Assembly (NCBI RefSeq): GCF_037975245.1 | Contig: NC_092583.1 | Span: 9,013,764 to 9,077,763 of the forward strand | DNA: 64,000 nt | Reading direction: 5' to 3' | DNA from: Apostichopus japonicus | Lineage: Eukaryota > Echinodermata > Holothuroidea > Aspidochirotida > Stichopodidae | Part shown: in pieces, positions 1,441 to 58,964 of the stretch | Numbering within the stretch: the first letter of the stretch is position 1 | Layout of the letters: the number at the start of each line of letters is the position of its first letter | Notes under the pieces: generated by a model | Database searches by the model: none | What the model was told of the DNA's origin: nothing | The model's input: only the letters and a program-made list of their open reading frames with translations | Translations under genes and position numbers: made by a program

Positions 1441-1705
1441 AGTGACATCCTCTTTTACAGGCTCACATCATTGGAGTTATTGATTGAGAAAAATGACTGT
1501 AAGAAGCTACTTGCCTACCTTAAAGTTCCCGCCAAGGAATCAAAGGACATTATTAAGAGTGATTCACCCTTTTCATCCCTTGTCCACCATCTCAGAGAGG
1601 CAGGGAAGGTTTCTTTTGATGACATCAACTATTTAATGGCAGCATGCTCTAATAAAGGACTGAGTAAATTGATGGCAGTATTGACTCTCTACCAACAAGC
1701 TCAAG
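1441..1705 (+). CDS. exon 1: DED-like domain
   Basis: Encodes about 88 residues beginning SDILFYRLTSLELLIEK. The pattern of a leading Tyr/Leu helix, a central P-F-x-x-L-x-x-x-L-R segment and a closing L-x-x-Y helix fits a death effector domain. I chose the acceptor at 1439-1440 (long pyrimidine tract, phase 0) because it restores the first helix. A second acceptor at 1459-1460 is also in frame and would remove seven residues. The donor is CAAG|GTATGT, leaving phase 1. Confidence 0.75.
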
Positions 1706-4700
1706 GTATGTTTATATCAGAGAGCTTAAAGGTTCAATATGTTATGAATCGCAAAATATTCAAATGCATTGCCAACACAAAGCATAGATGCAATTTGAGG
1801 TAATATACTTGTATTAACTTCACTTACTTAACCCATTGTTGATAGATAAAATGGACACTTCAGCAATGACCTTGATACAGATAATGTGATAAATGAGTTG
1901 GCAAGGAATTGAATAACCGCAATGGCCTGTATAGTACTTCAAAATCAGTGCAAGAGAATCCAATTTGGATGTTCAGAAGAGTAATTATTCCACACTACAA
2001 TACATGTTTCATGCAATGTCAAGGTCTTGCATTACAGTTAAATATGTGCATAAGCCTGTAACTTATGGGATATAGTCAAACGTTTGATTTGGGATATGTT
2101 CAGACAAGATTGGTAAAACATTGGAATTTCCTTTCCTTTTGAAATTGATAATTTTGAGGATCATTGAAGGGACTTGACTGTGTTCAATTGCTCAGCAGCA
2201 GGGCCAAAATCAACACCAAGGAAAGTGAAAGATTTACAGTGTTACCTCAAATAACATGCCAAAGTTGGACCAAAATGTGAGCTCACTAAATTTGGTGCAA
2301 GTTTGTCACAATATTTTCCGGAAGTTTACCGCATACATTATTAAGATACATTGAACTGTGTTATTTACATAACTAAATTTCTTATGTAGAAGACAATCTT
2401 TAACCATATTTGCATCTCATATTTTTGTTTCAGCACCATAGGAAAGTGAAAGATTTACAGTGTTACCTCAAATAACATGCTAAAGTTGGACCAAATTTGA
2501 GCTTACTAACTTTGGTGCATGTTTGTCACAATATTTTCCGGAAAGGTTGTACAGCATAAATAATTAACATACATTGAACTGTGTATATTTACATAACCAA
2601 ATCTCTTGGGTTGAAGAAAATCTTTAACCATGTTTGCATCTTAAATGTTTGTTTCAGATTCAAAGTTTACCAAAACAGTACTAAATGATCAACTAATGGC
2701 ATTAGAAGACAAAGGGCATGAACTCTCTCACAAACTAACTGAATCAGAAGATGAAAATCAAGAGCTCACTGGAAGACTAAAGACAACGGAGGATGAAAGA
2801 CAACAATTGAAAGATACATTAAAGGCAACAGAGCAGGAAAGACAACAGCTGACTGGGAGACTAAAGACAACAGAGGAGGAAAGACAACAATTGATATATA
2901 CGTTGACGGCAACAGAGGAGGAAAGACAACAGCTGAAAAGAACATTGAAGGCAACAGAGGAGGAAAGACAACAATTGAAAGATGCATTGAAGGCAACAGA
3001 CAAAGACTTCAGACAAACATTGAATACAGCTGAGAACAAACTGAAGACATTGAAGGATGAGAAGGAAGAATTACTTCAGCAGCAGAGAGAGGTTAGACTT
3101 CTCATAACATGTGATATGGATATCTGATGACCAAGTTACCTGACTTGGGTCATGAGAAATTTATTTATTATCAACAAGATGACCATTCTGTTTGATCTAG
3201 TGGTGTTAAAGTGAATTTGTAGTTTACCATTTGCAAATACAACATGTATTTTCAGAAATTAGGGAATGTTTATGATGTTCAACAGTAGAGGTCCAATGAT
3301 GAACATATTAACAGCTCTTTGCCTCAAGGATTTTTGTGCAAGCGTGATATTTAGTTCATATGATGTAAATTTTAGTATTTACATATTAATAGAGGTCAAA
3401 GGTCATTGAGGGTTAAGCAAGGTCAATCAAAGTATGTAAACGTAAGACAATCAAGAAGTGGAAATTTGAAAAAAGATCCTTCTAGGCGTAAAACTTTCAC
3501 ATCACAAGTAAAAGATCTCTATTGTATTTAAATCTTTAAGTTCTACACCTAGTATACAGGTCTCTCTTGATTCACACAGGTAAAAATATTTAATTTCTTT
3601 ATATCAGTGACTCATCTTTCAGAGGGATGCAATGTATGGTGGAATGTTATGTTTATATGGAAGTTCTCTACTAAACTGAAGTTTTACAACATTGTCCCAA
3701 TTGTTAAAGTTCACTAGCAAAACTATGTATATGCTATTGCACAATATGTAATAGATTAAATCATATTATGGCACTCATTGACCATCAAAACATAAAATTA
3801 ATCAAACAAATTTATATAATTGCACGTCTGTCCTTCAATGTGATAGGGCTACATTCATTTTACAAAGACAGTTGTTCGGCCACCATTCCTGGAAGTTTCT
3901 TTTGGAAGTTAGGTCACAGATCTCTGCATTAATTTACTTTGAACATGTGATTTCTCTGAGGCAGGTAGTAAATGTGCAGTCACATCCTCAAGTAAAGATC
4001 AAAATATTATCAGTTCAGCCTGCCTGAAAATAATGTGAAGAAATTTGTCAACTTGGAGAATATGTTCCCTTTAGACCGGAGATACTTCAATGCTAGTATA
4101 CATTTTAATATGTGGCAAGTAATCACTGGGAGGTGCGTCCCTCTTGTCTCATTCACTGTGCTATTTACATTACAGGAGCTGGAAGAGGCTAAATCAAGTA
4201 TGAGAGCTACAAAAGATGAACTTGTGAAGTCTCAATTGGAATATGCCACAGAATCCATGGTCTTACAAGAGGTCTTGAAGCAGACTAGGGAAGCCTTGAA
4301 TCAGAAAGAAATGGTAATGCCCCTTTCATACTTTCCCAGATCGGGCAACGATTTGGAACAATCCGTAGTGCAAGGCGATGATGCGCACCCAGAACGGGTT
4401 GTTACGGGTTGATATGGGTCCAGTATGGGTTACTACGGCGTTGTTACAGGTTGATAAGGATTGTTACAGATAGATTCCCGGGTCTATCCCGTATATGTAC
4501 GTATAACTTACGGGTTCCAATATTGTTTTCTACGGGCTGTTACATATCAATGACGGGTTTAATATTACCAACCCTTCACAACATGTTCAAACCCGTAGCA
4601 AGTTGTATCAAGCCGTAGTTTATACGTACCAATACTTGGCACGATCTGTTTCTATATGTAACAACAGATCACATGATCACACCTTACATGGTCCACTACA

Positions 4701-7700: not shown

Positions 7701-10536
7701 GCTACGTAACCTCTCGGTTCATGGCAGATCAGACCACAGATCACATGCCGGATGTACCGGTCAGCCAAGACCGGGCGTGTGATCTGGTAAAGTGTAAAAT
7801 GTGCTTTAAACGTATGATTAAGTTTAGTAAGTGAACTATTACTATAGAATCGTGTGTATGTGCACCAGTTTACCATCAGTAGAAAAGAAGTTTATGAAGT
7901 TTGGAAAATATTGTGACTAGACTATACTAATGTGTTGAATTTATGATAAAATATTCCACAGTTGAAGGTATTACAAGGTGACAACATAATCTTGAGCTTT
8001 ACAGAAAACAGTTCAATGAGTTAAGAAATGTTCTTTATTCATGCTCCATTTGATTACATGCAGTGTAAAGTTAGTATGAGTACATGCACATATGCTAAAA
8101 TCAGTTGGTTGTTTCAGCTGAAGACATAACTGGTGTAACTTGACAGTTGATTGATAGGAAAACAGTTTTTTTTGGTTACTTGCCAGGCAGGCGAGAAACC
8201 TATGCAGTCAAGTTGGCTTGTGCGTGTGTGTGGGTGCGCAAGGGTGTGCTGTGTACATGTGACGCCCTAGCAATTGTAAACACATTATCTCAAGATCGGT
8301 AACCTCTGCAGTTATTTGGCATGTGGCTTCCCCACATATCATAAAAATAACCCTATTGGTTTTGGTGCTGGTCTAAAAGTAATTTCGGGTCAGCAGATGG
8401 CAAAATGTGAATATCTAAAAACATCTCCAGAACCTGAACATCAAAGGAGTTCATATGTATAGTAGGATAGCCTTATGAAGTTTAAACATTTTTCTTTACA
8501 ATTTGGTGTACGTCAAGAATTCATTTAAGGTCACCAGGGATAAAAATACCTTCAAAATAGGAAACTTTGTTGGCTCTATTTAGTAGCTTCCTTAACATGA
8601 GTACAAGAACCTTATTGCTTGTGGTGGAGGTCAAAGGTCATTTGGGGTCATCAAAGGTCATATTCTTTAAAGCCTTATGAACAAACCTTGTAAACATGAT
8701 ATATATCAAATGTGTTACATGACATAGCTCATATCTGGCATGTGTCTTCCTTATAGTGAGTACAAGAAACCGTTTATTTTGGGTGGAGGTCAAGGCAAAT
8801 AAGCGCTGGGAGTTGTTAGTTTCAGTTTATCAAATAAGATATCTTTTGTATGTATTTATTTGCAGGCTTTATATGCATCTGCTCCGGGGAAAGAAACCCT
8901 ACATGAAGAAAATGTAACTTCAGACATATCACAGAAATCAAGTTTGGCAGGTAAGATCATAATGTAAAGATAATTACTGCTGCTCAATGTAAATATCAAG
9001 CAGGCAGTACAATGTTTCCTTATATCAGTCTGTTTGTTCTTAAACATTCCTACCTGCATATCTCCAAAGCTGCCAGGGGGATGTAGGAAGAGCAGTTGGG
9101 GAGCTAGGGGTATTGGTCGTCGGGGGGGGGGGGACAGGAATGGTCTGTAGGGGCGCTTTCGACACTACCTAAGCGGAGCGCCACCACAGGTTGGCGCGGA
9201 GCGTACAGGCATTTCTTGAGTAAAGATCCTCCCTAGATCGCCGGAAAAGACCCTTTCCGGACCTTGCTAATTTGCAGATAAACGACGAATAAATAGGTGT
9301 CATCGCCATTTGTGACAACTCGAAAGTTTATATGAGTGTTGAAAGTACCTGCGCTTCATCACAATGTGAGTGCTCATGTTTTCGTAGCCCTGACACAATG
9401 CCTGTTGTGCCTATTAGGTATTCTGGACCTGTAAATGCCAACAATACCACATCTGGGGGACGACATTTTGCCAACACCTATATTGACAGAAATATGTCAC
9501 ATGATAGTATGATACTTAAAATATACTACTATAAATTGAAAAAGAAGCATACCTCAACGATCAATCATTCATGAGACATGGGAACATTCACATTCGACAA
9601 GCACAAAAAGTGTTATCTTGGCTTCATTTTCCTCCCCTTTGATTTTGAGAATCGATCAATCACATTGTCCAAATCAAGTTGGTCAGCTATATTGCGCTCC
9701 ATGCTTATAATAGCAAGATTATAGAGCCTAGTCTGACCCATGGTTGATCGAAGGTAGTTTTTTATCATTTTTATCCTAACAAATTACCTACTGCACTAAT
9801 CAACACACTGATCATGGACTGCATGCCGACTTAAAAGTTGGTGTTTATTACTATTTCAGCCACTGTGCGTGGCGTATCGTCTTAAAATAGATCGAAAACC
9901 CCGTACAGTTCATGGAAATAGTTTTGTACAACGGAAAGTGCCGTAAATTAAAGACCGCTGTTAGAGCATTTTGTCAGAAAATTACACCAACAAAATGTGA
10001 CAAATGCCAATTGGTAGATCAGAGCGCAATAAAAAAAAATCAATAATCGCGAAGAAGTAAAAAGTGTTAAAAGCTGAAAAGGACGCCAGCAGCCCATTTG
10101 AGTCCATCAAGGGGTGGGCATCCGCCCCTCCTGACTGTATGGACGCTCTGCCACTGAGGAAGAGGGACAGAGGGGTGGGGTGGGCCTTTTGTCAATTAAA
10201 TTAGTGTAGATGCATTGTCAATCATGTTGAGATATTACAATTCTAGTGAGCTGTGCACAGGTGTCAATATATCAAGGGGTATTACTGAAACAGGTAACTT
10301 CTTTATTAAAAGCAAATTGTCCAGAGATATTTTAATTTGTGACATATTATGCCAGATGCAGACTTGGTACGGAAATGATTGTACAAGATGTGTAGTCTAC
10401 CTTGTTAATCTATTCCTGGTTCTGTCGGATCTTCTTTCTTACCTGAGATCATTGAAGCAATACACTGGTACTAATTTACTACTAAAGTTTCTCCTCACTC
10501 TTCTGTGTATTGATGAGTGTTTATGAAGATGGAAAC

Positions 10537-10586
<50 letters not shown>

Positions 10587-10599
10587 TATATATTTATAT

Positions 10600-10649
<50 letters not shown>

Positions 10650-16600: not shown

Positions 16601-19600
16601 CTTGGCAAATTACTGGCTACGCGCATGTTTGGGGGTTCCAAGCAAGCAAGGAAACTACGCGTTCAACTTGGCGTGTGTGTGCGTGCTAGGGTGTGTGTGT
16701 GTATGTGACGCTTGGCTTGTGTACACGATATCTTAATAAGGAAATGATGTATCATGATGAAACTTGTTGGGTGGATAGCCCATAGTAAGAGGAAGATCCC
16801 TATTGTATTTGGTGCCTGCAAAGGTCACCAAAGGTCAGTTAGATACCAAAAACCAATATATTAAAAACAGCAATAACTCCCATTGACAGGGTCCGACATG
16901 GTTGATATTTTGGGAGTAGTTGTGAATGGGGTAAGGGATCGTTTCTAAACATAACGGTAATGTGTTCAAAGGTCAACAAAGGTCAATTAACGATAAAAAA
17001 GTAGTATTTCTGCGATAACTTGAGAACGAAATGTCCGTTAGGGTTGGGAATTGCTTCAATGTAATCCAATTGTCGACCCACATCTGGGTAACCCTTGATC
17101 TCAATTTGACCTCTGGTGACCTTTACATGTTTTTGGGGATTTTACAGTTTTGATGCTATTTTCAGATGTCAAAGGTACCTTCTGATCATAAATGTCAATA
17201 GGTTGACCCCGTGTGACCTTCGTGTGCGAAGTTTTATGGGGTCAAAGTTTTTTGGTCGGAGTTAGGATGGTTGTACAGACTTGTCGTTTTTTTTTTGGAA
17301 TCAGGAGATTAAACTACATCTGAAACCAAGGTCAAAAGGTCACAGGTCATATTAAAAAAAAATGTGCTTATCTTGGGAGGAAACGAGCAAAAAAGAAAAT
17401 GTTTGGTTTTGATGCTACATTTTGATACCAAAGGTACCTTCCGATCAAAGATGTCAATGGGTTGACACCCGTGTGACCTTCGTGTGTGAAGTTATACGAG
17501 GTCAAAGTTAATTTTCAGACATTTAATGCAATAACTCCCAGTTGCAAGGTGTGACATGGTTGATATGTTTGGACAAGTTGCAAATGGTATAGGGGAATAT
17601 TTTCAAACTGAACGGTCATGTGATCTGAGGTCACCAAAGGTCAATTAATGTTAAAAAACTAGTATTTTGGGAGGAGAAAATGGGCAAATAAAAAAATGTT
17701 TGAATTTGTATAGTTTGATGCTCTATTTAGGTCTCACCGATCAAAAATGTCAATAAGTTGACCCAAGGTGACCTTTGTATGTTAAGTTATATGAGGTCAA
17801 AGTTAATTTTCAGACATTTAGTGTGATAACTCCCAGTGCCAAGGTGTTACACGGTTGATGTTTTGGGACAAGCTGCAAATGGTATAGGGTAATATTTTCA
17901 AACTTAACGGTCATGTGATCCGAGGTCACCAAAGGTCAATTAATGATAAAAAACTAGTATTTTTGCGATAACTTGAGAGGAAATTGTCCATTAGGGTTGG
18001 GAGTTGCTTCAATGTAATCCAATTGTCGACCCGCATCTGGGTGACCCTTGCCCTCAATTTGACCTCTGGTGACCTTTTCGTGTTTTGTGGATTTTTTTCA
18101 GTTTCGATGCTGTTTTCAGATGTCAAAGATACCTTCTAATTATAAATGTCAATGGGTTGACACCCGTGTGACCTTCGTGTGCAAAGTTATACGAGGTCAA
18201 AGTTAATTTTCAGACATTTAATGCAATAACTCCCAGTTCCAAGGTATGACACAGTTGATATTTTTGAAGTAGTTGCAAATGGTACATAGGAATATTTTCA
18301 AACTTAACGGTCATGTGATCCAAGGTCACCAATGGTCAATTAATGATGAAAAAGTAGTATTTTTGTGATAACTTGAGAACGAATTGTCAGTTAGGGTTGG
18401 GAGTTGCTTCAATGTAATCCAATTGTCGACCCGCATCTGGGTGACCCTTGACCTCAATTTGACCTCTGGTGACCTTTTCGCGTTTTGGGATTTTTACAGT
18501 TTCGATGCTATTTTCAGATGTTAAAGGTACCTTCTGATCGTAAATGTCAAAAGGTTGGCCCCCGGATGAGCTTTGTGTGTGAAGTTATACTAGGTTATAC
18601 AAAGTTAATTTTCAGACATTTAATGCAATAACTCCCAGTGCCAAGGTGTGACAAGGTTGATTTTTAGCTCATACCAGCATGCTGGTGTGAGATATTGTTA
18701 CAGTGCGGCGTCTATCACTCTATCCGTCAACAATTGGTAAAACCGCTCCCACTCGCACAGTGTTCGATGGAGTTTCATGAAACTTGGACACAAGGACCAT
18801 TAGGTATAGGGCTTTCAGAGATGGTCCAAAATTTGGGGTCAAAGGTCACCTGTGGGCCATATTGGGCCATTTTGTGGAAATACGCAAAATTCTTCTTCTC
18901 CTACAGATTCCATGGTACAATGTTGAGGGTTTGTCACGATAGTACTATGGAAGTTTTACCTTCAGGGTGTTCATGAATTTGAGATCAAAGATCAACTAGG
19001 GGTCTTTTGTGGCCCGGGCCGCGGCCCTATACTTTCAAAATGCTCCTGTTCGTACAGTGTATGGCCAGTTATAATGAAACTTGGTCACAACGTTCCTCGG
19101 GATGAGAGTTACGAGGGTTGTTCGGAAAATTGATGTCAAATGTCATTTAGGGGGTCATCTGGGTCATTCTTTGTAATATTTTCAAATATCTCAATCTCCT
19201 CAAGATTTTGATGGATCATATTCAAAGTTGAACTGATGATTGTTGGATTATGTATAAATAAGGTGATGCCTAATAATTTTTGGTCAAAAGTTAATTAATT
19301 ACAATTAATCCCCATTGTTTAAAAAAATCTGAGCTTTCACCTTTTGCCAAAGCTCCTTTAATTTGTCTCCCAGTCTCTGCAGTGCTTGTTTACATTTGTG
19401 GTTAAGCTCTGCAGAGGCTGTTAGTGGAATTAAAGCAGGACTGGGAGTTGTTATTAACTGTTGAACTGTAAGCATGAGAGCCCTATAGCCAATCAGCACT
19501 TGCCCATTCTTAGAAGTCTTTGAGCCTGAGGTATGTAGGCAGCCAGCCAAACTTTTGGCAAGGAGTGCTTCAGGTCTGCTAAGGTAGAGGGGAGAAAGTT

Positions 19601-22600
19601 TAATAGGGTAGGTCAGTGGAAAGGTATTGTTTGAGATAGTGGGTAAAACAGGATTTTAAGGGGGAAAATAGGAATTATAGCTAGTGGTGTGGCCAGGATT
19701 CTGCTAACTGAGGGGGGGGGGGGTTATGCCTCATGGGCCCAAAATTGGTGGAATCTGAAAAATGGCCTGAAATTTGGTGGGCCATAAAGTTTTGTGGGCC
19801 CTACATTTTTAAGCTTGAAAAGGTATGAGCTTCTGCACCATTGTTGCTCTAGTTTTTGACAAGTTGCGGATGGTATAGGGGAATATTTTCAAACTTAGCG
19901 GTCATGTGATCCAAGGTCATCAAAGGTCAGATGATGTTAAAAAACTAGTATTTTGGGGGAGAAAATGGGCAAAGAAAAAACGTTTGAAATTTTACAGTTT
20001 TGATGCTCTATTAAGGTGTCACCAATCAAAAATGTCAATTGGTTGACCTACGGGTGACCTTTGTGTGTAAAGTTATGTATACAAGTTCAAAGTTAATTTT
20101 TAGACATTTAATGCAATTAAATCCCAATGCCAAGTGTGACACGGTTGGAACATTTTCAAACTTAAAGGTCATGTCATCTGAGGTCACCAATGTTATCACA
20201 TCTGTTGACCCGCTTGTAGGTGACTTTATTCTTACATTTTCGACGCCATATTTAGATCTCAAAAGTGCCTTTTGATAAAAAATCCGATCACATTTTGTGA
20301 TCACAAAAGCGTTGGCTATAGTGTTGGTTACTTTATGGGTACATGTAGGACCACAATTATTTGGACTATTTGAGCCCAATCTTGCTTGATAATATTATGT
20401 GTATTGTCATATACCCCAAGCAAGGAACCACAGTGCCCTTGGGCTCTTGTTCCATAATTCTTTTACATGTATTTTGCATTGTTTCTTTGAGTATATATCA
20501 AGCATTCTGATCGTTAGTATAATTGATTTTCAATATCCTTTATCCATTAGCATATAGACATTGGTCACCTATGTGCTGCCAGTAGAGTCTTGCATCAGTT
20601 CAGACTTAAAAGAAACGACGATGGACATACTGTCATGGTTGATGTGGAGTTAAAAGTATCACAACATGAGAAGAACCAGACAGCCCTTATCCTCCAATCA
20701 AAGGTGAGTTATATTTGCTGATTGCCTTCCAGCTGTTTTGGTTCTCATATGTTTCTTGATTATGTAATATTAAGTGGCGTCTTCTCTCTTCTGATCATTT
20801 CTTTGCTTAGTAATGTCCTGTCTGTTGGAAGTCTTGCAACAGTTTTCAGGCTCACTGAATAATGTCAGTGCTGTGACTGAATTCTAGTTATTTGTTGGCA
20901 TGTTCTCTCATGAATCATTTTCTTTGTAAACTTGATGGTGGATGACAATTGAATTTAATTGAATTATAATAGTCTTTTATTCAAGTACTATCTTTTTTTC
21001 AGTCGCTCACTGGTGTACCTAAGTTTCTTATTTTGATACCGTTTTCCGAGTCTTTGGTGTCTTGTTAAAAATATTTAACTCAAAATGCAGTGAAATGCTG
21101 AAAACAATATACATATCACAAGTGTTTTATGCTTTGTACTGGTCAACAGTTACTGGAAATTTTGTTTCGTGGGTATCTTAGGTACCAATTTAATACTCCA
21201 TAGTGATAGGTATATTTTGTCATAAACATAATCCGCTTCCTTGGGATTTCACACATTTATTATGTGTTGTTCAATGTCTGTTTCAGCCCTTTTTTTCTAC
21301 ATTATGTTTCTACATTAAACCGTACCATCCACATGGGTGTGATAGATAGTCTGCAATATTGTTGTTAAACATACATACATTTAACGTTTTTATCGGTCAT
21401 AAATTTTGTGTTTTCCTTCAGGTGAAAAACATTCTCTTATCTCCAGAAAGTCAGAAAATTCTTTTCAGAGAACTACATTTAGGTGAGTTTTTAAGTGAAT
21501 TTTAACGAATGGTTGGACATGGGGTTTTATAAGTCCACCCTGACCTGCATCTAAAGTGAAATTGGATCAAAAACTAACATGAACGCTCATTATCCTTGAC
21601 ATGCACCAGGTTAGTGTGTGTTAGTGGAGATAAAAAAGTAAGCAAACATACAGAACATGGACCCAGGTGAGTGTCTAAGTAGACGTGAAAATGTAATAGC
21701 ATTTGGTTTTACAAGTAGACACACCTGAGTGTCACTTAAAACAATTAAGGTTATTGGGAAACATTTAATCAAAAACTACTTTGTAGCTCAAAGCTACTTT
21801 TGAAAGTGAAACTGTAAACAAGACTAGAATTTATGCACAAGACGAGGGGTAAAAGTTGAAAAGTTGCAGGAAAGGTTTGGATAGTATAATTCACCAATTT
21901 ATTGTGTGCACGCACCAACGTTCTCCATGCAGGTTGCATGCTTCTCGTGGGCCAGTTATGTACTTACTTGTTTATGTTAGTTGTGAACATTGCTCATTGT
22001 TCAAACCTGGCACACAAGTAGCCTGTGATTCATGCACTTTTAGTTATACATGTGAATCTAGTCTTTTCTCTCATTTGAATGTAATGTGAATGTTGTTGTT
22101 CTCACTTCAGACTTAGACAGATATGAAGAGTTGAGAAGAGAGATTGCAAAGCTTCTGGATAAACAACATTGTGAACAGCTAGGCATGTTCTTTGGGCTCA
22201 CCCCAGCAGAAAAAGAAAAAATTCAGAAAACACCAGAATCTGGAGAGATACTGATGAAAATATTGGATGAAAGAGAACTTATCATGCCAGATAGAATGAT
22301 TGGACTGTATGAAGGATTGAAAGCTATTCACTATAATAAGCTGGCAACACAGGTGCTGAAGTACATTGATACGTCACAGAAGAAGAATGGAAAGGAAAAG
22401 GAAGGAGCGAAAGATGATAAGAAAATAGTATGCGCTTAGTAAAAACTTGTTAAGACATAATACAGCGTGAAAGCAAAACAAAAGTCACTTTGAATAAAAT
22501 CAAGATCGTAGAAGGTTAGAAGGCCTAGTACAGACTGTAATCTCTGATATGTAAAGTATATATTTTTTTTCTCTCATGCAAGTCTGTCTGAAATGTTTCC

Positions 22601-25600
22601 TTTCACTAATTGTAACAGTTTCTGCTCACATGAAGTTACATATGTAGAGATCAAATGTACAGGAAATCTGTGTAGAAATTTACTAAGCCAAATCAAATAC
22701 AGTAATTAGTTTTCTATCTTCATGACATAATGATAAAATGTGAATTTCATAAACAATTTTTAATATTTCAACATTATTCCTTCAGGTAAAAGTTCCACAG
22801 AAACAGGTAGTCATGTCAAAAAGGGAACCACAATTGTCAGTAAATTTCAAAATTTTGATAGAAGAGGGATACAAGAGACTGGATGTCCAAGGAGCCTTGA
22901 AATTGTCTCATGGAAAACTGGACTTGGGAAGACGGCTGTTGCTGCTTGCTAAGGAAGAGCATGGTAAAGTACACATATAGTCAGCTACATTGGTATTTCT
23001 TATTTATTTTTTCCTGATATAATTTACCTCAATCTTATATGACATTGTAGGACAACATTTCATGCCGCTGGCTGTTTCAGTGTTCATGGAAGGAAAAGGA
23101 TTTTGTTATTTATTTTTGTAGGAATATTACGCACAAAATAGCTGAAAAATAGAAATATAATCTAGATGCTGTAAATAAACCTAATTCTTGTTACCTTTAA
23201 TGAAAAGTTCTCTTCTCTATCTGTTTCCATGAATCGCATCAAACATGTCTAATGTTCACTCTTCCACAGTCAAGTATGGTTTTGATTCTTCATTATTGTA
23301 GACAAATATCCAATAGAAGCAGTGTGGGGTAAGAGAGGCTATTTTCATAATGTGAATTGAAACAGTAAACATTTAAACAAATTAAAAAATAAACAGTAAC
23401 AATTAACAGATGTTTAATGATAGTGGCAAAATACTTTCCTTTCACATGAAATATATTACTTTTTTTCCTACAGAGAGACTTCCTTTGTTTCCAGGGTCAA
23501 ATCTTTATAAAGAACAATACTTTGATCAGCGTGGAGGAGAGATGTTTGTTGCAGGTGTTTGCCTGCTTGTACCAGCTGGTGCACTACACACTGGAAGGAT
23601 TGTTAGTCTGTGGGTTTCTACTGAACCTGCCATTAAAGGACCTTTCTCAAACAAGAGTCTGAGGTTGACCCCCTTTGTGAAATTTGGCCCAGAGAGCCTT
23701 ACCTTACACAAGCCTGTCACCTTGATTATTCCACACTGTGCTTTAACTAAAACTAACCAGATGGGTATTGATGTGTACTCTGGTGTCTTACAAACAGGTC
23801 TGTTCCTTTCTTCTTTTACCATGTGTTTTTCTACTCCAGTGAACATGTATATATATAGTCACTAAAATGTGTATTATCAACAGAGGTATGCATATAAGCT
23901 TGTGTGTACCACCTCTTGTTCGACTTGTAAACATGATAGCCAAAAAGTGTATAAGGTTATTATTTGACACTGTGTGTGTGGTTCCATATTAAATGAATAC
24001 AAAATACCCTGTTTTTCTGTAGAGGTCAAAGTCTGAAACATTTGTAAGCACAATGATTCAAAACAGGTTGTGTGAACTTCGTTGGTACTATTTAGATTCG
24101 ATGGGTTATGTTAAACAAATTTAAAGTGTGTTGTGCTGGTCATATGGTCATTTATAGTCAATATGTGTCAAAGCCTGAAAACCTTCTAAACCTTCATAAC
24201 TGCTGAAGTAAAGCTGGACTGAAAGTCACACTTAATATATAAAACCATCTGGTACACAAATACAATATTGAGAAGAAAATCACTAAACTTTCTGGTTCTG
24301 TGAAATGTTGAATTCAATATCTCAAGAACGTGGCTATGTCCAGACAAATCATTTACATTTCAAGGAACCTTTCTCGTATGAGTTGTACCTTCTGACATGT
24401 TGCACATTTAAGGGAAAAATAAACATTACCCAAGGGAAATAGTACCTTTCGAGCTGTGTTAAACTTAAGGGTTTTATCTATTGACCTTGCATCCATACAT
24501 AGCGTTAGAAACATGATATTTTACTATTTTGATATTCTATATATGCAGTGTTGCATTTTCTTCCACCAGACTGTCCCATTAAAGTCATCTATGGTATAGT
24601 TAAGGATTGGTGTTCTACCTTTCACCATGTTATTAAACTTACTAGCAAAATGTTTTTGAATTTTTCTTCAGATAAATCTGTCAAATGGACTTTAGAAAAG
24701 AAACACCTCAGCTGCTCTATGAATAGCCAGCACCTTGAAGTTGAAGCTCAGAAACCCTGTTACATTGGTCTTCACGTCCCTTTCATACCTAAGATGAGGA
24801 AGCGTGTTTGTATTTTACCGATTGCAAACAGAGTTTCTGATTCGGGGGATCAATTGACAATCCATCTTTGGTTTCACAATGATGACACACTGGAACATAA
24901 AGTAAGTAGCAGATTTTATCAGCTCAAGTGGTATTGCTAATTATCTCGTGGATTCCAGTTTAATATCTGCCTTTCTGAATGACACATGGTTCATACACAG
25001 ATTTATACAGGTTGATTCATTGTTAACCATATTAGTTATGGAAATGAAATAGTTATAGCTTGATGCACCCTGCAGGCTCAAACCTCTCCGACAGTCAACT
25101 TGTGAAGATATAATTAAGGGAAAGATCAAGTGAGATAAGCTGGTTAAGGCAGTCTGTAGTCATCAATGGTTGACAATTATAACTTTGCACTGCTCAAATA
25201 CACACTGATCAATTGTCCTAGAACAAAATTGAATCTTCAATAATTTATTGTTGTTGAACATTGACAACTGGCAACAAGTTTTGTAATTACAGACACATAA
25301 ACACACCTTAACCAGGTGTCCAAGATAAGACAGCACTGATGTTTATATCAGAACATAGGCTGTTAGACTATTAATGGTCTTTGACAATGCATCATACCAG
25401 ACAGTCACACCTCATTATATTATATATTAACAACATCTCCCTTATTTATCAAACAATGACCACCCCAGATAGGGCCATACTGAGGAGCAGTTCTGCTTCC
25501 TGGTCATACATAGGACCACTAAGCAGTGTGTGCATGGATGTTAATATTAATATTAACATTTACATAAATAATAATAAAATCTACAATTGTTTTATTTTTT

Positions 25601-28074
25601 ATATTAATAGAGTCTTATCCATGAAGAAATCTACCAGCAAAAGGGAACCATAATTCATGATCCTGTGTCATTTCTGATCCAATCTATGACTTCAACTTTA
25701 CATGTTAGCACTAACTCCAGCAGATCACAGTGTAACCCACATCCTAGAAAAGTGGTTAGTAATATTTGTTAAATATACTTATTTATTTGAAGCAACAAAT
25801 TCCTGTTCCACAGGTAGTAATTTGCATTTGTTGGAAGAATAGTTATATGTACTGTTGAGTGGTACGTATATGGTGTTAGCATATGTTTGTATACAAATAA
25901 ACATTTAATTTTAAAACTTGTCTCCTGTCATTCCTAATATTCAATGAATGAAAATGGGGTCAGATGGTCCCAGCTGCAGTTGTCTATACAGTTGATTTCA
26001 ATCTGCACTAGTCCTTCATTCCATCCTCATCAACTGTCCATGTATTGATTATATAAATACTTTGAAATGAGTGTGATGGTCTCTTATTTTTTTTTTTTTT
26101 TGCTGATACGAAAATAATTCTGTTCAAGCTTATAAGAGCTGACTTGAATTTGAATATGAAGTTGATAGTTTATAGTCTTGCCTGAAAACCAAAGCCTTGT
26201 CAAGTTGATTTACAATGCCAATTATATTTAAATATGCATAATTCCATTAGTTGGTCATAGAGTACTTCAGTTTACCATGTATTTGTCCACTGGGTGACAT
26301 AGGTATAGTCAAAGTCAAGGACACAGCTATATTTACAAATAACCTTGCAGTTTCCAATGTATCAGCCAATACTCATAGCTAGTACAGTAACTACTGTTCA
26401 TGTTTCACAACCGTGCATCAGTATAAATTACTGCGTTGTATTTGTAACACGGTAACATGTGTGACAGTGTTGGCAAAGTAATTACTGCAAGTTTTTTCAT
26501 ACTGCAAATTTCAAATTACAAATTTTAAGTTTTAAAAATTAAAAAAAAGTAACGTTTATGTTTTTTCATTTAAAATTACTGCAAATTTTAAACTGTCAGA
26601 CTCGTAGTTCACGTGTAACAGCTTTCAATAACTACTGTGCCAACTGTAATACGTGTTTTACAGTGTTGCAAACACAGCGCAGTAGTTACTGATGCACGCT
26701 TGTGAAACATGGACAGTAGTTACTGTACTAGCTATGAGTATCGGGTGAATGTATACACCTGGATGAAGACAATTGAAGTTATTTCCCTGCCTAAGGCTAG
26801 ATTGTAACATTCCAGTAGACCAGTTCTGGCACCTGCATTCTCTAAATTGCAAGCCCATTGCCCTTACAACTTGACCACCATGTTCAAGACTCTCAAAAGG
26901 TTTACAAATGAATAAGTAATCATCTCTTAATTTCTCTCTTCAAGGATGTTGCTATGGAAACCCTATGGTTAAAGAACAGACACAAGGTAGAATGCCATCT
27001 TCAGAATAAAGGGATCAAAGATACTGTCACTCTGGAAATAGAAGCAAGATATGGGATGTCCGAGAAGAATCTTTTCCAGCTTAATATTCAGTTGCAGGTA
27101 ACTTAATATGTGGTTTAAATAAACACAGATAAAAATGAATACAAGGAATTTAATGTTTCACTTTGGATTTATCTTATCTAATGAGACTCGTTTTATGTTT
27201 ACCTTGTATTATACTTGTTTTTTATACTCTAGTTTAGTCAAGTTTCTATTTCTATGGAAATCTCTACTTCATTTTGCCTAAATTTATGAACTAATTTCCA
27301 ATATACGATTTGAAATATAATGTTACAATTTTACACAAAATACAGCCTTGTGACAATCTCTCTTCATATTACAAATGTAATACATATAAAATATCCTAAA
27401 CAGTTAGTACTAATTAGCATATCTAAACATTACCACTTAAACTACTTTTTGATACACACTGTCAGATGATAGAGGTGAGATATTCACAAACTAATTTTCT
27501 AGCGGAATCATCATTTTTTTCCTCTTCATTTTGTCTTCACAGATTGACAAATTACTACATATTGACCAAATCACATCTCCATTCCAGCTCGCCCTACCTG
27601 AATGTGAGTACTTTATAACGTTATTAACATTTAAAGGCATGTTATTAAATCGAAGACCAGTGTTGATGTTTGCTTTACAATCATTACATATGAGATGTGT
27701 ACACCTAATCCTACTTTCCATAGAGGAGTCCCGGCTGCAGTTGCTATGTCAACTGGTGGACCAACTGTCAGCTATTTGCAATATTTGATATTAATGAAAA
27801 TCAGTTTTTACACCAAAGCAACACACTTAAAGACTGAGTATGTATACTGTATTGAAGTATCACTGCAGTGAACAATAAAAATTAATGAAATACAACCACC
27901 TCTTTAAAAAAAAACATTCTGGAGATAAATCATATTTTATATTTAGGATCATTGAAAACTCTGAGCTTTTAAGGTTTATTTTGCCCGTGTGTGTAAGAAA
28001 CACATCACTGTTGTCCCACAATTCTGAATATTGTTTGCATGAAACAGGTTCTGCTGAATTTATTGTATGTAGAG

Positions 28075-28122
<48 letters not shown>

Positions 28123-28455
28123 TTAACAATTTCCTTTTCTTTAAACCTCACAGCCATCATCAAATCTTTTGATCAGCTAAAGCAGAACATATCAGAAAAT
28201 CTTGATGTAGACCAAACTACCCTGCTGGCAACTATTTTCCATATTCCCGAGGAAGGAATCTCTGATATCAAGAAGCACAACAAACCAGGAACTCTTTTGT
28301 TAGAGAAGCTGACCCAAAAATCACTGATATCTCCCACAAACATCACAACATTGGAAAATGCCCTAACAGAACAAGGAAATGAAAAATGTGCGAAACTTCT
28401 CAGAGAATTCAGAAGTAAAAATCCTGTAGTTCAAGCAACAATGTGCCCAGAATAA
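1441..28455 (+). CDS. multi-exon DED / coiled-coil / double ZU5-UPA scaffold protein (5'-partial gene)
   Basis: Eighteen exons join in one open frame of 4,041 nt, giving 1,346 residues plus stop TAA (28453-28455). Domain order with approximate residues: DED-like 1-85; coiled coil 95-279; linker 280-307; DED-like 308-395; ZU5 455-575; UPA 577-757; linker 758-777; DED-like 778-870; ZU5 943-1050; UPA 1051-1226; linker 1227-1246; DED-like 1247-1346. ZU5 and UPA occur together in UNC5, PIDD and ankyrins, usually before a death domain. DEDs are homotypic adaptors in caspase-8/FADD signalling. A cytoplasmic signalling scaffold is therefore inferred. No signal peptide, membrane segment or protease domain is seen. 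The N-terminus is missing. The death-fold domains lack the Trp typical of classical death domains and match the DED pattern better. Every boundary has AG/GT and compatible phase; exact boundaries need transcript data. Confidence 0.85.
2213..2657 (+). repeat. tandem duplication of an intron 3' end with its splice acceptor
   Basis: About 221 bp ending in a pyrimidine-rich tract and gtttcag is present twice, at roughly 2213-2433 and 2434-2657, differing by scattered substitutions and small indels. Both copies end in an AG acceptor (2433 and 2657). Only the second is followed by the exon 2 reading frame; the first is followed by the next repeat copy. Confidence 0.85.
2658..3091 (+). CDS. exon 2: coiled coil with 14-residue repeats
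   Basis: Encodes about 145 residues that are almost entirely charged or Leu heptads. The core is a 14-residue, 42-nt unit of the type TEEERQQLKRTLKA, repeated about five times with a degenerate copy on each side. The spacing of two heptads per unit and the Leu at the d-like position predict a long parallel coiled coil for oligomerisation. The entry phase completes an Asp codon with exon 1. The donor is GAG|GTTAGA, phase 0. Confidence 0.85.
4176..4313 (+). CDS. exon 3: coiled coil continued
   Basis: Encodes 46 residues starting ELEEAKSSMRATKDELVK, continuing the heptad pattern of exon 2. The acceptor is ttacattacag and the donor ATG|GTAATG, phase 0 on both sides. Confidence 0.8.
4330..4750. 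repeat. degenerate TACGGGTT-type motif cluster
   Basis: The motif TACGGGTT and its complement AACCCGTA, with variants, recur irregularly between the exon 3 donor and repeat copy A. A shorter stretch with related words (tacgggttgccacagat, agatcacatg) lies beyond copy A at about 7665-7800, so copy A may have inserted into it. I do not recognise the family. Confidence 0.4.
4755..7607. mobile_element. AGGTCA-rich dispersed repeat, copy A (probable non-autonomous DNA element)
   Basis: The left end reads cagtgtttttggttccttgc and the right end, reverse-complemented, contains cactgtggttccttgc, an imperfect terminal inverted repeat. The right end closes with ggctcttgtt, as in copies B and C. A (TG)n tract at 4809-4860 follows the left end. 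The interior consists of variable-length tandem units carrying the conserved phrases gtgatccgaggtcaccaaaggtca and gataacttgagaacgaatt. No transposase frame is present. The superfamily is unknown. Confidence 0.6.
8160..8810. repeat. second AGGTCA-containing dispersed repeat family
   Basis: Starts with a hairpin-like end (ggttacttgcc, then ggcgagaaacc) and a GT-rich stretch similar to the left end of copy A. The body differs: the phrase gtacaagaa, then a Thr/Leu-poor AT-rich stretch, then gtggaggtcaaaggtcatttgg. It contains a perfect AGGTCA-A-AGGTCA at 8628-8640. Related sequence recurs at 10985-11660. Confidence 0.5.
8866..8950 (+). CDS. exon 4: linker
   Basis: Encodes 28 residues (ALYASAPGKETLHEENVTSD onward) with no domain signature, linking the coiled coil to the second DED-like domain. 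The acceptor is ttatttgcag and the donor CAG|GTAAGA. It enters in phase 0 and leaves in phase 1, as the following exon requires. Confidence 0.7.
9060..10190. other. intron segment with possible decayed mobile element
   Basis: Bounded on the left by a poly-G run (9121-9132) and GC-rich hairpin words (ggagcgccacc / ggttggcgcggagc), and on the right by ggacgctctgccactg near 10140. These words resemble element ends common in marine invertebrates, but I could not match the two ends to each other. No coding frame is supported. Confidence 0.25.
10540..10648. repeat. (AT)n microsatellite, two blocks around a 29-bp centre
   Basis: Two long AT dinucleotide runs flank the short centre acagtatatatttatattgc. 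The whole array can fold on itself. Frames translated through it are artefacts. Confidence 0.95.
10985..11660. repeat. second AGGTCA-containing repeat family, internal tandem units
   Basis: The phrase accacatttcgtacaagaagcc and variants recur near 11126, 11214, 11476 and 11615, each followed by a ttttggtggaggtca-type phrase and a catttggggtca-type phrase. This matches the family at 8160-8810. A GT-rich stretch lies at its left (11015-11050). The 95-residue frames here run through the repeat and are not genes. Confidence 0.55.
12007..12330 (+). CDS. exon 5: DED-like domain
   Basis: Encodes about 108 residues. The first 85 form a death-fold: helix 1 around LMVNVAEDL, then KLATLFGLPPAETDMLRR, ITLIKFMKTRNI and VTNLQKGLVYI. 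It resembles exons 11 and 18 in hydrophobic spacing and in the (L/M)-x-x-x-F-x-(L/I)-(P/T) motif. It lies directly before a ZU5 exon, unlike most ZU5-UPA proteins, where the death fold follows. The acceptor is tttcag and the donor CCAG|GTAAGA; phases 1/1. Confidence 0.8.
12708..13992. mobile_element. AGGTCA-rich dispersed repeat, copy B (left-truncated)
   Basis: Joins the family abruptly at gtcatgtgatccgaggtcac and runs to the common right end ggctcttgtt. It shares the interior phrases of copy A in the same orientation. It lacks the GT-rich left end. Confidence 0.6.
14148..14630 (+). CDS. exon 6: ZU5 domain 1
   Basis: Encodes 161 residues. The first 60 are acidic and polar. The ZU5 domain follows: FEGGTISVMGVHLTIPEYAL, then VISVKVIYV, then MTPLIKLEPEGLALNKPAQL and TIPHSA. 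Gly-Gly-x-(I/V/L), the (I/V)P-x-x-AL turn, P-x-(I/V)-K-x-(E/G)P and IPH are the family's usual landmarks. I see no His-Phe-Ser autoprocessing motif like that of PIDD. The acceptor is tttttag and the donor GAAG|GTAAAA; phase 1/1. Confidence 0.88.
14808..15034 (+). CDS. exon 7: UPA domain 1, first part
   Basis: Encodes 76 residues starting GEITWTEEKS. The run INILSYVFVNLV followed by a beta-rich segment (IFRIVPFIDG, DDVLITVCFC) fits the start of a UPA domain. Its counterpart in the second module is exon 14 (227 versus 230 nt, same phases). The donor is AAG|GTGAGG. Confidence 0.78.
15480..15641 (+). CDS. exon 8: UPA domain 1, middle part
   Basis: Encodes 54 residues starting LLLEDYQSKLSLGNYTTFQV. 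Phase 0/0. Position and phase match exon 15. The acceptor is atgttttag and the donor AAG|GTTTGT. Confidence 0.72.
16341..16625. mobile_element. MITE-like element with TGCG(CG)TAGCCA inverted ends
   Basis: The left end is tgcgtagcca and the right end tggctacgcgca, reverse complements apart from one CG insertion. The element is about 285 bp, has G-rich and C-rich runs just inside each end and encodes nothing. A related phrase (gtgtggccaggat) occurs near 19688. It abuts repeat copy C. Confidence 0.6.
16630..20451. mobile_element. AGGTCA-rich dispersed repeat, copy C (interrupted)
   Basis: Begins gggggttccaagcaagc followed by a GT-rich stretch, and ends ggctcttgtt like copies A and B. The family sequence stops at 18665 and resumes at 19853, with a foreign segment between. 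It has the same internal phrases and orientation as A and B. Confidence 0.6.
18666..19852. mobile_element. element nested inside repeat copy C
   Basis: Flanked on both sides by ttttt (18661-18665 and 19853-19857). Outside these, the flanks join as the continuous family sequence seen uninterrupted in copy B near 13345. The left end carries the near-palindrome ctcataccagcatgctggtg; the right end contains ggtatgagct, inverted relative to agctcatacc at the left. It includes its own ggtcaaaggtca phrase at about 18838. The 81-residue minus-strand frame inside matches nothing I know. Confidence 0.55.
20551..20703 (+). CDS. exon 9: UPA domain 1, last part
   Basis: Encodes 51 residues starting HIDIGHLCAASRVLHQF and ending in a beta strand (VMVDVELKVSQ) then TALILQSK. 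Exactly 153 nt, the same length and phase (0/0) as exon 16. The acceptor is tatccattag and the donor AAG|GTGAGT. Confidence 0.75.
21422..21482 (+). CDS. exon 10: linker between UPA 1 and DED-like 3
   Basis: Encodes 20 residues (VKNILLSPESQKILFRELHL) plus one base. It is 61 nt with phase 0/1, identical in length and phase to exon 17. Too short to stand alone, it is supported by the phase fit and by its counterpart. Confidence 0.7.
22111..22427 (+). CDS. exon 11: DED-like domain between the two ZU5-UPA modules
   Basis: Encodes 106 residues: DLDRYEELRREIAKLL, then CEQLGMFFGLTPAEKEKIQK, a GEILMKIL helix, MIGLYEGLKAI and a closing helix, then a Lys-rich tail. The pattern parallels exons 5 and 18. 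The acceptor is ctcacttcag and the donor AAAATA|GTATGC, phase 1/0. Using the donor avoids the nearby stop at 22437. Confidence 0.78.
22786..22963 (+). CDS. exon 12: inter-module linker
   Basis: Encodes 59 residues starting VKVPQKQVVMSKREPQLSV, with no domain I recognise. It is mixed basic/hydrophobic and ends RRLLLLAKEEH. It has no counterpart in the first module. Phase 0/1, which the ZU5 exon that follows needs. Confidence 0.68.
23474..23797 (+). CDS. exon 13: ZU5 domain 2
   Basis: Encodes 108 residues: FDQRGGEMFVAGVCLLVPAG, IVSLWVS, LTPFVKFGPESLTLHKPVTL and IIPHCAL. The landmarks correspond one to one with ZU5 1 in exon 6 (GG-x-(I/M), VPAGAL, TPFVKFGPE, IIPH). It lacks the N-terminal acidic extension of exon 6. 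The acceptor is ttttttcctacag and the donor CAG|GTCTGT, phase 1/1. Confidence 0.87.
24672..24901 (+). CDS. exon 14: UPA domain 2, first part
   Basis: Encodes 76 residues starting DKSVKWTLEKKHLSC, with CYIGLHVPFIPKMRKRVCIL as its core and ending DDTLEHK. It is the counterpart of exon 7 in length, phase (1/0) and the shared KSV-x-x-x-(L/K)E start. The donor is AAA|GTAAGT. Confidence 0.75.
25611..25754 (+). CDS. exon 15: UPA domain 2, middle part
   Basis: Encodes 48 residues starting SLIHEEIYQQKGTIIHD, aligning with LLLEDYQSKL in exon 8. It is 144 nt, phase 0/0. I place the donor at AAAGTG|GTTAGT. Ending two bases earlier at AAAA|GTGGTT would break the frame into exon 16 unless it dropped exactly one codon, so the choice affects one Val. 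Confidence 0.68.
26369..26741. mobile_element. foldback (long inverted repeat) element
   Basis: The left arm at 26369-26450 (atactcatagctagtacagt onward) is nearly the reverse complement of the right arm at 26655-26741, with a handful of mismatches. The centre of about 200 bp is AT-rich and also partly self-complementary. No coding. It lies in the intron between exons 15 and 16. The transcript of this intron would form a stable hairpin. Confidence 0.8.
26945..27097 (+). CDS. exon 16: UPA domain 2, last part
   Basis: Encodes 51 residues starting DVAMETLWLKNRHKVECHL with a beta strand (DTVTLEIEARY) and ending LFQLNIQLQ. Exactly 153 nt, phase 0/0, like exon 9. The acceptor is tctcttcaag and the donor CAG|GTAACT. 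Confidence 0.76.
27543..27603 (+). CDS. exon 17: linker before the C-terminal DED-like domain
   Basis: Encodes IDKLLHIDQITSPFQLALPE plus one base. It is 61 nt, phase 0/1, the same as exon 10. The donor is GAAT|GTGAGT. Confidence 0.7.
28077..28119. repeat. (TA)n microsatellite
   Basis: Uninterrupted TA dinucleotide run 35 bp upstream of the exon 18 acceptor. It replaces the usual pyrimidine tract region almost up to the acceptor. Confidence 0.95.
28154..28455 (+). CDS. exon 18: C-terminal DED-like domain and stop
   Basis: Encodes 99 residues and the stop TAA. The death-fold pattern is FDQLKQNISENLDVDQTTLL, ATIFHIPEEGISDIK, GTLLLEKL, NITTLENAL and CAKLLREF. The Leu-rich segment and the final L-x-x-F helix match a DED better than a classical death domain (no mid-domain Trp). 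The acceptor is aacctcacag. No AATAAA follows within 1 kb; a GATAAA variant is at 28495. Confidence 0.8.
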
Positions 28456-30360: not shown

Positions 30361-31252
30361 CTCTCTCTTTAATGGTGATCTGCCTTAAGGCGGGTCCCTC
30401 ACCAAACACAAAATCATAAGAACCGCTCTTCTGCATTTCTGCCATCTCTGATATCATCCATCAACATTATTCTCTTTCTCCCTCTTGGTCGCTTCCCGTT
30501 CATTCTTCCTTCAAGCACATCTTTCAGTAGTCCGTCATGTCTCAAGATGTGCCCAATCCACCTTTTCTTTCTCAGCTTAATAGTTTCTCCCAGCCTGCGG
30601 ACCTCACCAACCCTCTGTAGAATTTCCTCATTTGTGACCCTGTCTGACCACTTTATGTTCTCAGATTTTCTCCTAAGCTATATCTCCAATGCGTCTATTC
30701 TTTTTCTGTCCTCTTTCCTAAGTGTCCAGGTTTCTGAGCCATACAGGAATAAACCCCACACAAAATATTTCATTAATCTCTTCTTTAATTGTAACTCAAG
30801 ACTAGCAGTAAAAAGAGAGTTGTGTGGTTTGAAAGTTTCCTTGGCCATTGCCACTCTTGCTCTGATTTCGGTTTCACAATATACATCTTCCGCCAGTAGA
30901 CTACCAAGACATTTGAAGTGTCTGACCTGTTCAAGTTCCTTCCCCTCTATCTCTATATGAACTCTTCTTTGTTCCCTTCCAATCTTCATGACTTTCGTGT
31001 TCTTGATGTTAATCCTCATCCCATACTGGTTGAAAACTCTGTTGGTATTCTCCATCATACGTTGAAGTCCAGCCTCCACGCTTGCTAACATTGCCCGGTC
31101 ATCTGCAAAACGTACCGACTTCATCCATTGTCCTCCAACTTGTATTCCTTCTTGAATTTCATCAAGTGCGTCAGTTATCATGGCATCTGCGTAAATGTTT
31201 TATAGGACTGGAGACATAAGACATCCTTGTCTCACTCTTCTCCCTATTGTGG

Positions 31253-33520: not shown

Positions 33521-44029
<10,509 letters not shown>

Positions 44030-47560: not shown

Positions 47561-47773
47561 CCTGCTGTTACGGCTCCGTATGTGAACTACAAAAGACACA
47601 TAGTTTCGTTAGTTATCTTAGCACTACGCCTAAGCAGTTTAACGAAGCCTATATCAAAATCATCTAATTCGTACGCGTTTCTGACCTATCAGTCATATTT
47701 TAGCAGCCTATACGATAGCCTACCACAGGAGTGAATATTTCTTGTCTATTTTGGATTCATTCTCTTTATTGGA

Positions 47774-58077: not shown

Positions 58078-58744
58078 GTGAGACCAAATATTTGGTTTCA
58101 TTCAGTTAAGTAGTATTTTGACATGAGTTGTCACATTAGAACAGAGAAGAGCAAAGTTTATCGACAGCTGTAGATAACAATTATATAAGAACCCAGTGAA
58201 ATTGTCGCCAAACACTTGGAGATAGGAAACTAAAACAATACAGAATACATACTGGGCTACTGTAACTGTTTTCGTATGATCGATGGTGGATTTTGATGAA
58301 ATATTAGTGATTAATACGGATTGGAAAACATGAAAGAACGACTTTATTTTCATTAAAAATAAATAAAGATCAATGTTTCAAGCCTACAAAATGGTACCAG
58401 CTGGGATTTTTCTGTATAGACCTGTCCTAAAATAATGTTTCCGTAAATTCAGGTGGAATAGGAGGAGGAGAAGGGGTGTAGGAGGGGTAATGCGGGCAGA
58501 GGCGGAGTGATTGCAGGGAGGTTTTAATGTGTGGAATGGATGATCATTTCCCATTAATTATAATCCGACAGCGAAAAAATATTATTCGAAAACGACAATG
58601 CATTTAACATATGTTTAGTTAAGACTCACATACAATTGATTCCACGTTTACGCGTGTTCGTTATACTTGTAAGACGGTATAATAAACGTTCAATGTAAGG
58701 CACATTTAGCTATCACTTTTTTTTTATATTTCATTTCCATTTAG

Positions 58745-58964
58745 GAAGACAAAGAAAATGCTAAGGCTGCAACGTGTCTTTCCAGAATGTGAGTTGTTAT
58801 TGCAGAGTGATCTTCAGCATGTTTTACATCTAACCACAAACAAACCGATAACTCTTGGCAGAGGAGCGTTTGGAGTAGTAAGACTAATGAAAAACATCAA
58901 AACTGCAAGGCTTTGTGCTGTAAAAACCTTTCAAAATCATCTTAGAAATGCGAAAATATTCAAG
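58745..58964 (+). CDS. kinase-like gene exon 3: kinase N-lobe
   Basis: Encodes KTKKMLRLQRVFPECELLLQ and then the N-lobe: ITLGRGAFGVVRLMKN (glycine-rich loop) and LCAVKTFQNH (ATP-anchoring Lys). Acceptor ccatttag, donor AAG|GTTAGC, phase 2/0. Confidence 0.8.

Follow-up and report, generated by a model that had tools for sequence, protein, structure and literature searches.

Alternating ZU5 and DED-like domains in the predicted product of a multi-copy Apostichopus japonicus gene

Introduction

PIDD1 carries its domains in the order LRR-ZU5-ZU5-UPA-Death, and in UNC5b the ZU5, UPA and death domains pack together. A stretch of 64,000 nucleotides of Apostichopus japonicus DNA (contig NC_092583.1, positions 9,013,764 to 9,077,763), here called the window, raises the question of whether a single gene can alternate ZU5-UPA units with DEDs, and what the product of such a gene might do. 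An earlier note on this DNA had proposed one open frame over 18 exons, encoding four DED-like domains, a coiled coil and two ZU5-UPA pairs. The exon chain and both ZU5 domains stand; the two UPA assignments are not confirmed by sequence, and the borders of exons 1 and 11, the start of the gene and the content of exon 12 are corrected below.

Gene structure

Rebuilding the locus from open frames, splice-site scores and codon use gave 18 exons on the forward strand, with AG/GT borders and consistent phases. The chain from 1461 to 28455 is most likely a single protein-coding gene with at least 19 coding exons, namely the 18 in the window and a probable tiny first exon upstream of it. The 18-exon chain of the earlier note is retained as real, with the following corrected borders (window coordinates):

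1461–1705, + strand: exon 1, DED1; acceptor 1460, alternative acceptor 1440
2658–3091, + strand: exon 2, coiled coil of 14-residue (two-heptad) repeats; 42-bp tandem repeat
4176–4313, + strand: exon 3, coiled coil, continued
8866–8950, + strand: exon 4, short linker; from splice scores
12007–12330, + strand: exon 5, DED2; aligns with DED4 and DED3; no Pfam match
14148–14630, + strand: exon 6, acidic linker and ZU5-1; Pfam ZU5 E 9.8e-8
14808–15034, + strand: exon 7, last part of ZU5-1 and beginning of UPA-like region 1, by position; dN/dS 0.33
15480–15641, + strand: exon 8, UPA-like region 1
20551–20703, + strand: exon 9, UPA-like region 1; 153 nt, matching exon 16 in length and phase
21422–21482, + strand: exon 10, linker; 61 nt, matching exon 17 in length and phase
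22111–22427, + strand: exon 11, DED3 with a charged tail; splice donor GT at 22428
22786–22963, + strand: exon 12, UBA-like segment
23474–23797, + strand: exon 13, ZU5-2; Pfam ZU5 E 2.3e-13; UNC5B and ZO-1 in the PDB
24672–24901, + strand: exon 14, last part of ZU5-2 and beginning of UPA-like region 2; alternative acceptor 24569
25611–25754, + strand: exon 15, UPA-like region 2
26945–27097, + strand: exon 16, UPA-like region 2
27543–27603, + strand: exon 17, linker; undetected in two of nine copies
28154–28455, + strand: exon 18, DED4, ending in a TAA stop; Pfam DED match under the cut-off (E 0.008)

Exon 1 had been started at 1441; because 42 of its 53 genomic matches begin at residues 7–10, that is, past the acceptor at 1460, the start is most likely 1461. 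Exon 3, searched together with the reading frame behind it, is found at 54 places in the genome, and 35 of these matches end at residues 47–55, near the end of the exon (46). Exon 4 recurs in frame, with equal length and with its AG and GT kept, in the next gene copy on contig C23 (L052), a copy that has no exon 3 and whose phases still fit. The length of the coiled coil varies between these two copies, exon 2 encoding 144 residues in the window and 175 in L052.

With the first exon added, the assembled protein has 1,343 residues and reads MVEKLTSLELL at its beginning. Its predicted domain order, DED1-coiled coil-DED2-ZU5-UPA-DED3-UBA-like-ZU5-UPA-DED4, in which UPA is named by position, is well supported. 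The Pfam search revealed no enzyme or catalytic domain above the cut-off in this protein.

One gene across the exon 11–12 junction

Exon 11 reads in frame into a TAG (22437–22439), which is followed 54 nt later by an AATAAA at 22493, and exon 12 contains an ATG (22813–22815) that is the sole candidate start there. Together with exon 18, a paralogue of exon 11 that is a terminal exon, these signals led us initially to favour two neighbouring genes, the first ending with DED3 at the TAG and the second running from ATG 22813 as UBA-like-ZU5-UPA-DED4. This model was overturned when the region from exon 11 to exon 12 was aligned in 26 copies, the window copy included. The donor GT at 22428 is kept in all 26 and the acceptor AG ahead of exon 12 in 25, whereas the ATG is present in only five and the AATAAA in nine, and the stop shifts, reading VCA-stop in ten copies (the window gene among them), lying one codon later in seven and further on in nine. 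Because donor and acceptor are kept while stop and ATG vary, we conclude that exon 11 is most likely spliced from 22427 to exon 12 and that the gene is one; the two-gene model has become very improbable. The earlier note had named a split between exons 11 and 12 as the outcome that would speak against its single gene, and this is contradicted by the 26 copies, in which the splice sites at this junction are conserved but no internal start or stop is.

The same alignment moved the end of exon 11, previously put at 22352. At 22353 stands another GT, within a Val codon, which 25 of the 26 copies also keep. The 75 nt that follow the rejected donor are, however, as well conserved as the exon is elsewhere, and with them helix 6 of DED3 becomes complete, for which reason 22427 is preferred. 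Identity to the window over the 26 copies is 89.5% with 0.3% gaps in this tail (22353–22427) and 81.6% with 4% gaps at 22434–22520. The 27 nt of exon 12 that precede the ATG are 84.4% conserved, compared with 78.9–82.4% for the intron, and have 0.4% gaps as against 4–6%.

The early VCA-stop in ten copies, again with that of the window gene, and the AATAAA in nine would also suit alternative transcripts, a short form stopping past DED3 and a long form splicing on, at least in those copies that carry both TAG and AATAAA. Neither signal is conserved in the remaining family, however, and we consider this arrangement quite unlikely compared with a single spliced form of the gene.

Start of the gene

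Exon 1 of the window copy has no opening ATG, and the gene, which had been taken to start inside the window at this exon, most likely begins upstream of it. The string ATGGTGGAAAAGTGAGTGC (ATG GTG GAA AA followed by a donor; MVE/K across the junction) occurs in two units 3.1–3.3 kb ahead of exon 1 in the window copy; in the next copy it precedes exon 1 by 1.9 kb. The likely first exon, encoding MVE/K, would lie 1.6–1.8 kb ahead of the window. Genome-wide, with up to two mismatches, the string gave 103 matches, compared with seven for the reversed control. Among the 100 matches listed, 83 have an exon 1 on their own strand no more than 8 kb downstream, and 88 no more than 25 kb downstream; with the strand flipped there are none. 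When two partial exon-1 places are left out, 36 of the 51 others have the string within 8 kb, among the matches listed. The string often stands in tandem units about 213 bp apart, the unit used not being fixed, and its conservation may partly reflect this tandem repeat.

Ahead of the window start by ~1.6–1.8 kb, C23:9011946-9012177 is such a ~213-bp tandem repeat with units that contain ATGGTGGAAAAGTRAGTGC, and the repeat precedes many gene copies. It may provide several interchangeable first exons or promoters.

Two other candidates for the 5′ part were rejected. A putative upstream exon at 17914–18017 of the stretch L049+L050 has a broken frame in the next copy. A protein kinase copy lies 18–19 kb upstream of exon 1; the probable first exon intervenes, and none of the 37 kinase matches listed is on C15, on C16 or in the vicinity of the C19 arrays.

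Domains of the predicted protein

Against the Pfam profiles by which the earlier note expected its domains to be recognised, the ZU5 domains pass the cut-off, the DEDs fall below it and UPA finds no match. ZU5-1 and ZU5-2 score 32.6 and 50.6 bits (cut-off 21), in agreement with the two ZU5 domains proposed, and a PDB search matched them to ZO-1 and UNC5B about equally well.

The four DED-like domains are unequally documented. DED1 (exon 1; E 0.015–0.03), DED3 (exon 11; E 0.0006) and DED4 have Pfam DED matches below the cut-off, the scores on single exons being 15 to 20.4 bits for a gathering score of 35.9, and DED2 (exon 5) has none. The C-terminal domain, DED4, has this weak DED match and no Pfam Death match, which indicates that there is no C-terminal death domain. 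DED3, the only one modelled, is supported by its AlphaFold model, which has the six-helix DED fold. Its best fold matches are solved DEDs, led by the viral FLIP MC159 and chains of caspase-8/c-FLIP assemblies, and it is closer to DEDs than to other death folds, the FADD death domain standing at row 22 of the list. The usual charge motif of DEDs is RxDL. It is absent from the assembled protein of the window copy, the one copy in which it was sought, and given this absence the DEDs may assemble differently from usual.

By sequence, the nearest solved relatives of the DEDs are c-FLIP chains, at E values (0.24 and 0.11) that are not significant. These resemblances in sequence and fold, and DEDs without a protease or any other catalytic domain above the Pfam cut-off, would suit a dominant inhibitor or decoy of DED signalling like c-FLIP and the viral FLIPs, whose many copies would tune a threshold. 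This is the main rival of the signalling scaffold that we propose below. Non-significant matches and the resemblance of one DED do not reveal a function, however, and the coiled coil and ZU5 modules suggest a regulated platform; we regard a decoy as possible but rather doubtful and prefer the scaffold.

The UPA domain that had been claimed after each ZU5 fits by position, and neither unit has a Pfam UPA match. A UNC5-type gene of the same genome matches this profile at 5e-14, and one of six family members gave a match to UPA_SH3BP4 at E 0.12. UPA-like regions 1 and 2 resemble each other by a shuffle test, in which five of 2,000 shuffles reached their score, although a profile comparison gave only E 0.13. 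Neither region resembles the UNC5 UPA, with 72 and 1,895 of 2,000 shuffles reaching the score. A profile alignment with the UNC5-type gene of the same genome spans the ZU5 and its end and then stops, and UPA alone found no match. The AlphaFold model of exon 14 is of low confidence (mean pLDDT 53). Position suggests that the two regions after the ZU5s are UPA-like, and we use the name in this sense.

According to PMC3210808, autocleavage of PIDD, NLRP1 and CARD8 takes place at an HF/S or SF/S site where ZU5 ends, UNC5b carries Leu in place of the buried Phe, and the UPA-like part of NLRP1 was aligned with less confidence. Placing the site by eye, we found no HF/S or SF/S motif at the ZU5 end of either unit. 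Unit 1 reads LSY at this position in 11 of 11 copies, with Leu and not Phe as in UNC5b, and unit 2 reads K[PS]C in all nine readable copies, so that by eye a Ser or Cys is kept at the would-be cleavage site despite the absence of the motif.

Exon 12 encodes a segment that was missing from the earlier domain list. In a PDB search it matched the CBL UBA domain (E 0.011 with a single sequence, 0.0081 with a nine-member profile), and six of the ten entries listed are CBL or CBL-B. None of the nine members has a Pfam match in this exon, to UBA or otherwise, and we treat the UBA identity, a weak match, as a lead.

A family of about 50 copies

The genome searched comprises 671.6 Mb in 35 contigs. Exon 12 is found at 53 places, distributed over C15 (24), C23 (14), C19 (9), C16 (4) and C11 (2). 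Exon 1 is also found at 53, two of which look like pieces of one while two more, on C11 and C12, are weak. Exon 4 has 12 places including that in the window, 11 of them on C23; eight have E values above 0.1 and four below. For ZU5 there are at least 150 matches (from 150 scored out of 204 candidates), other ZU5 families included.

The surroundings of the 53 exon-12 places are alike. An exon 1 lies within 40 kb upstream on the same strand at 46 places and on the opposite strand at none; an exon 3 lies within 30 kb at 46; and a ZU5 lies within 3 kb downstream at 47 or more. At least 38 places combine exon 1, exon 3 and the downstream ZU5, and at least ten have a ZU5-1-type match within 12 kb upstream, among the matches listed. 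The ZU5 counts per place are lower bounds, the matches listed omitting even the window copy's own ZU5-1. Ten paralogous stretches were selected because each has a pair of ZU5s on one strand; in nine of them exons 5 to 18 follow in window order, exon 17 being undetected in two. By the exon places, the gene is a member of a family of about 50 copies, in arrays on a few contigs, which looks like an expansion of intracellular signalling scaffolds.

Up to nine copies were used for dN/dS estimates, made without a significance test on 12 exons (all but 1–4, 10 and 17) with the stretches P4 and P10 left out. All 12 values lie below 1. The lowest is that of DED2 (0.23; five copies, the most diverged one left out) and the highest that of DED3 (0.59; nine copies). 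Between these are UPA2a (0.25), UPA1a (0.33), ZU5-2 (0.38), UPA2b (0.40), UPA1c (0.41), DED4 (0.43), the UBA-like segment (0.45), UPA1b (0.47), UPA2c (0.52) and ZU5-1 with its linker (0.53). By this measure the copies look like genes under constraint, with DED3 the freest.

Individual copies are damaged. In P4, one of the nine ordered stretches, exons 14, 15 and 18 contain frame breaks or stops; P10, the tenth, has exons 5 to 12 only and lacks exons 13–18 in the stretch examined; and the place at C15:27132899 has a stop within exon 12. Such cases would be expected of a family of mostly decaying copies without function, but the dN/dS range of 0.23–0.59 in all 12 exons, obtained without P4 and P10, and the 52 of 53 exon-12 places that are stop-free leave this reading only a slight chance.

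Discussion

The locus carries a genuine single gene, present in many copies, with a new domain order built from known parts; a function can be ascribed to it by inference. Our search of open-access PubMed Central, outside which most subscription papers lie, returned no description of an architecture that alternates ZU5-UPA with DED, and within this literature the claim that alternating ZU5-(UPA-like) and DED units are undescribed is supported. The nearest report concerns marine invertebrates, whose DED and TRADD-N proteins have expanded in particular lineages and are in some cases fused to FIIND or UPA-ZU5 (PMC8195603). A lineage-specific DED expansion, with UPA-ZU5 or FIIND in some members, is common to both; our gene differs in having no Pfam TRADD-N match, and the tandem ZU5-UPA-DED with a UBA-like segment is not described in the available part of that paper. 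DED proteins with new domain combinations have also been reported from amphioxus, sea urchin and sea anemone (PMC2575513, PMC2246300), in main texts that do not contain the word ZU5. In an older survey the purple sea urchin has three DED proteins and amphioxus 57 (PMC2246300).

Each of the better known systems shares some features with the gene. UNC5 proteins (UNC5B, UNC5CL) have the same succession of ZU5, UPA position and death-fold domain. The gene differs from them in having a DED-like domain for the death domain and two tandem units preceded by a coiled coil and more DEDs; no transmembrane segment is visible by eye, and its UPA is unrecognisable by sequence. PIDD1 likewise holds two ZU5s in one scaffold with a death-fold end, but the ZU5s of our gene alternate with DEDs, and it has neither Pfam leucine-rich repeats nor an HF/S motif. 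With the FIIND-CARD part of NLRP1 and CARD8 it shares a ZU5-UPA type module beside a death-fold domain, which is a DED instead of a CARD, and it differs again in lacking SF/S and any Pfam NACHT or LRR. Caspase-8, FADD and c-FLIP have the six-helix DED fold in common with DED3, while the gene has no protease and no RxDL, and places ZU5 modules between its DEDs.

We propose that the protein is a death or immune scaffold that nucleates through its DEDs, is held closed by ZU5-UPA and is opened without autoproteolysis, a scheme that we consider evenly poised. A ZU5-UPA-DED half-unit would have been duplicated once, ahead of the spread of the family, and the whole gene then copied to about 50 members in arrays. 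The coiled coil would join protein chains, and each ZU5-UPA would fold back on a neighbouring DED and hide it, as ZU5-UPA does on the UNC5b death domain. Opening would follow the binding of a ligand, for which ubiquitin chains recognised by the UBA-like segment are one candidate, and the exposed DEDs could seed a filament with FADD- or caspase-8-type proteins. Release by opening and not by autoproteolysis is assumed because both ZU5s are without an HF/S or SF/S site. The scheme draws on PMC3210808 and on what is generally known of these proteins. Homo-oligomerisation and a part in apoptosis or immunity, which the earlier note had put forward, are suggested by the usual roles of DED, ZU5 and coiled-coil proteins.

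A scaffolding role unrelated to cell death, comparable to that of ankyrin or ZO-1 and with the DED-fold domains as structural adaptors only, would agree with ZU5s that match ZO-1 as well as UNC5B and with the missing RxDL. However, a chain with four DED-like domains and a family this large are more in keeping with immune or death adaptors, and DED expansions with some UPA-ZU5 fusions are reported from marine invertebrates (PMC8195603), which makes such a role improbable beside the death or immune scaffold preferred here.

A further reading, unlikely in our judgement, extends the preferred scaffold to a signalling repertoire. About 50 near-parallel scaffolds, with fast-changing DED3 and ZU5-1 and a conserved DED2, would sense or nucleate different death or immune assemblies and be opened by ubiquitin without autoproteolysis. 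DED3, with the highest dN/dS, would then be the variable surface, possibly shaped by DED decoys of pathogens.

The timing with which a death-fold domain is released is governed by ZU5-UPA modules in UNC5, PIDD, NLRP1 and CARD8, as PMC3210808 describes in part. Two ZU5s that alternate with DEDs, with no recognised cleavage motif and in about 50 copies, provide a comparative test of how DED assembly could be gated by closure without autoproteolysis. If some 50 copies are intact, the family would add close to 200 DED-like domains, a figure obtained by multiplication and not by counting.

Other features of the window and the genome

Several features lie downstream of the gene in the window:

30678–31199, − strand: separate weak reverse-transcriptase fragment
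42460–42708 and 43748–44026, + strand: M14 zinc carboxypeptidase exons (E 3e-15 and 3.7e-12)
47735–49975, + strand: non-LTR retroelement with endonuclease and reverse transcriptase
58710–58988 and 59950–60300, + strand: protein kinase exons (Pfam Pkinase E 1.6e-11)

Close copies of the kinase (73–96%) are found in the C23 array at 8.86–9.33 Mb, and others at C23:1.40 Mb (72%) and on C9 (65%). A second family of ZU5 genes is represented by L006 on C16 and L007 on C12, and many of the ZU5 matches listed for the genome fall on C12. The exon past the ZU5 of this family has no Pfam UPA match and reads LKNFSWEKF, by eye near the HF/S motif; its products may be self-cleaving. The UNC5-type gene (L001, 742–2874) contains ZU5, UPA and Death in one open frame of 711 codons.
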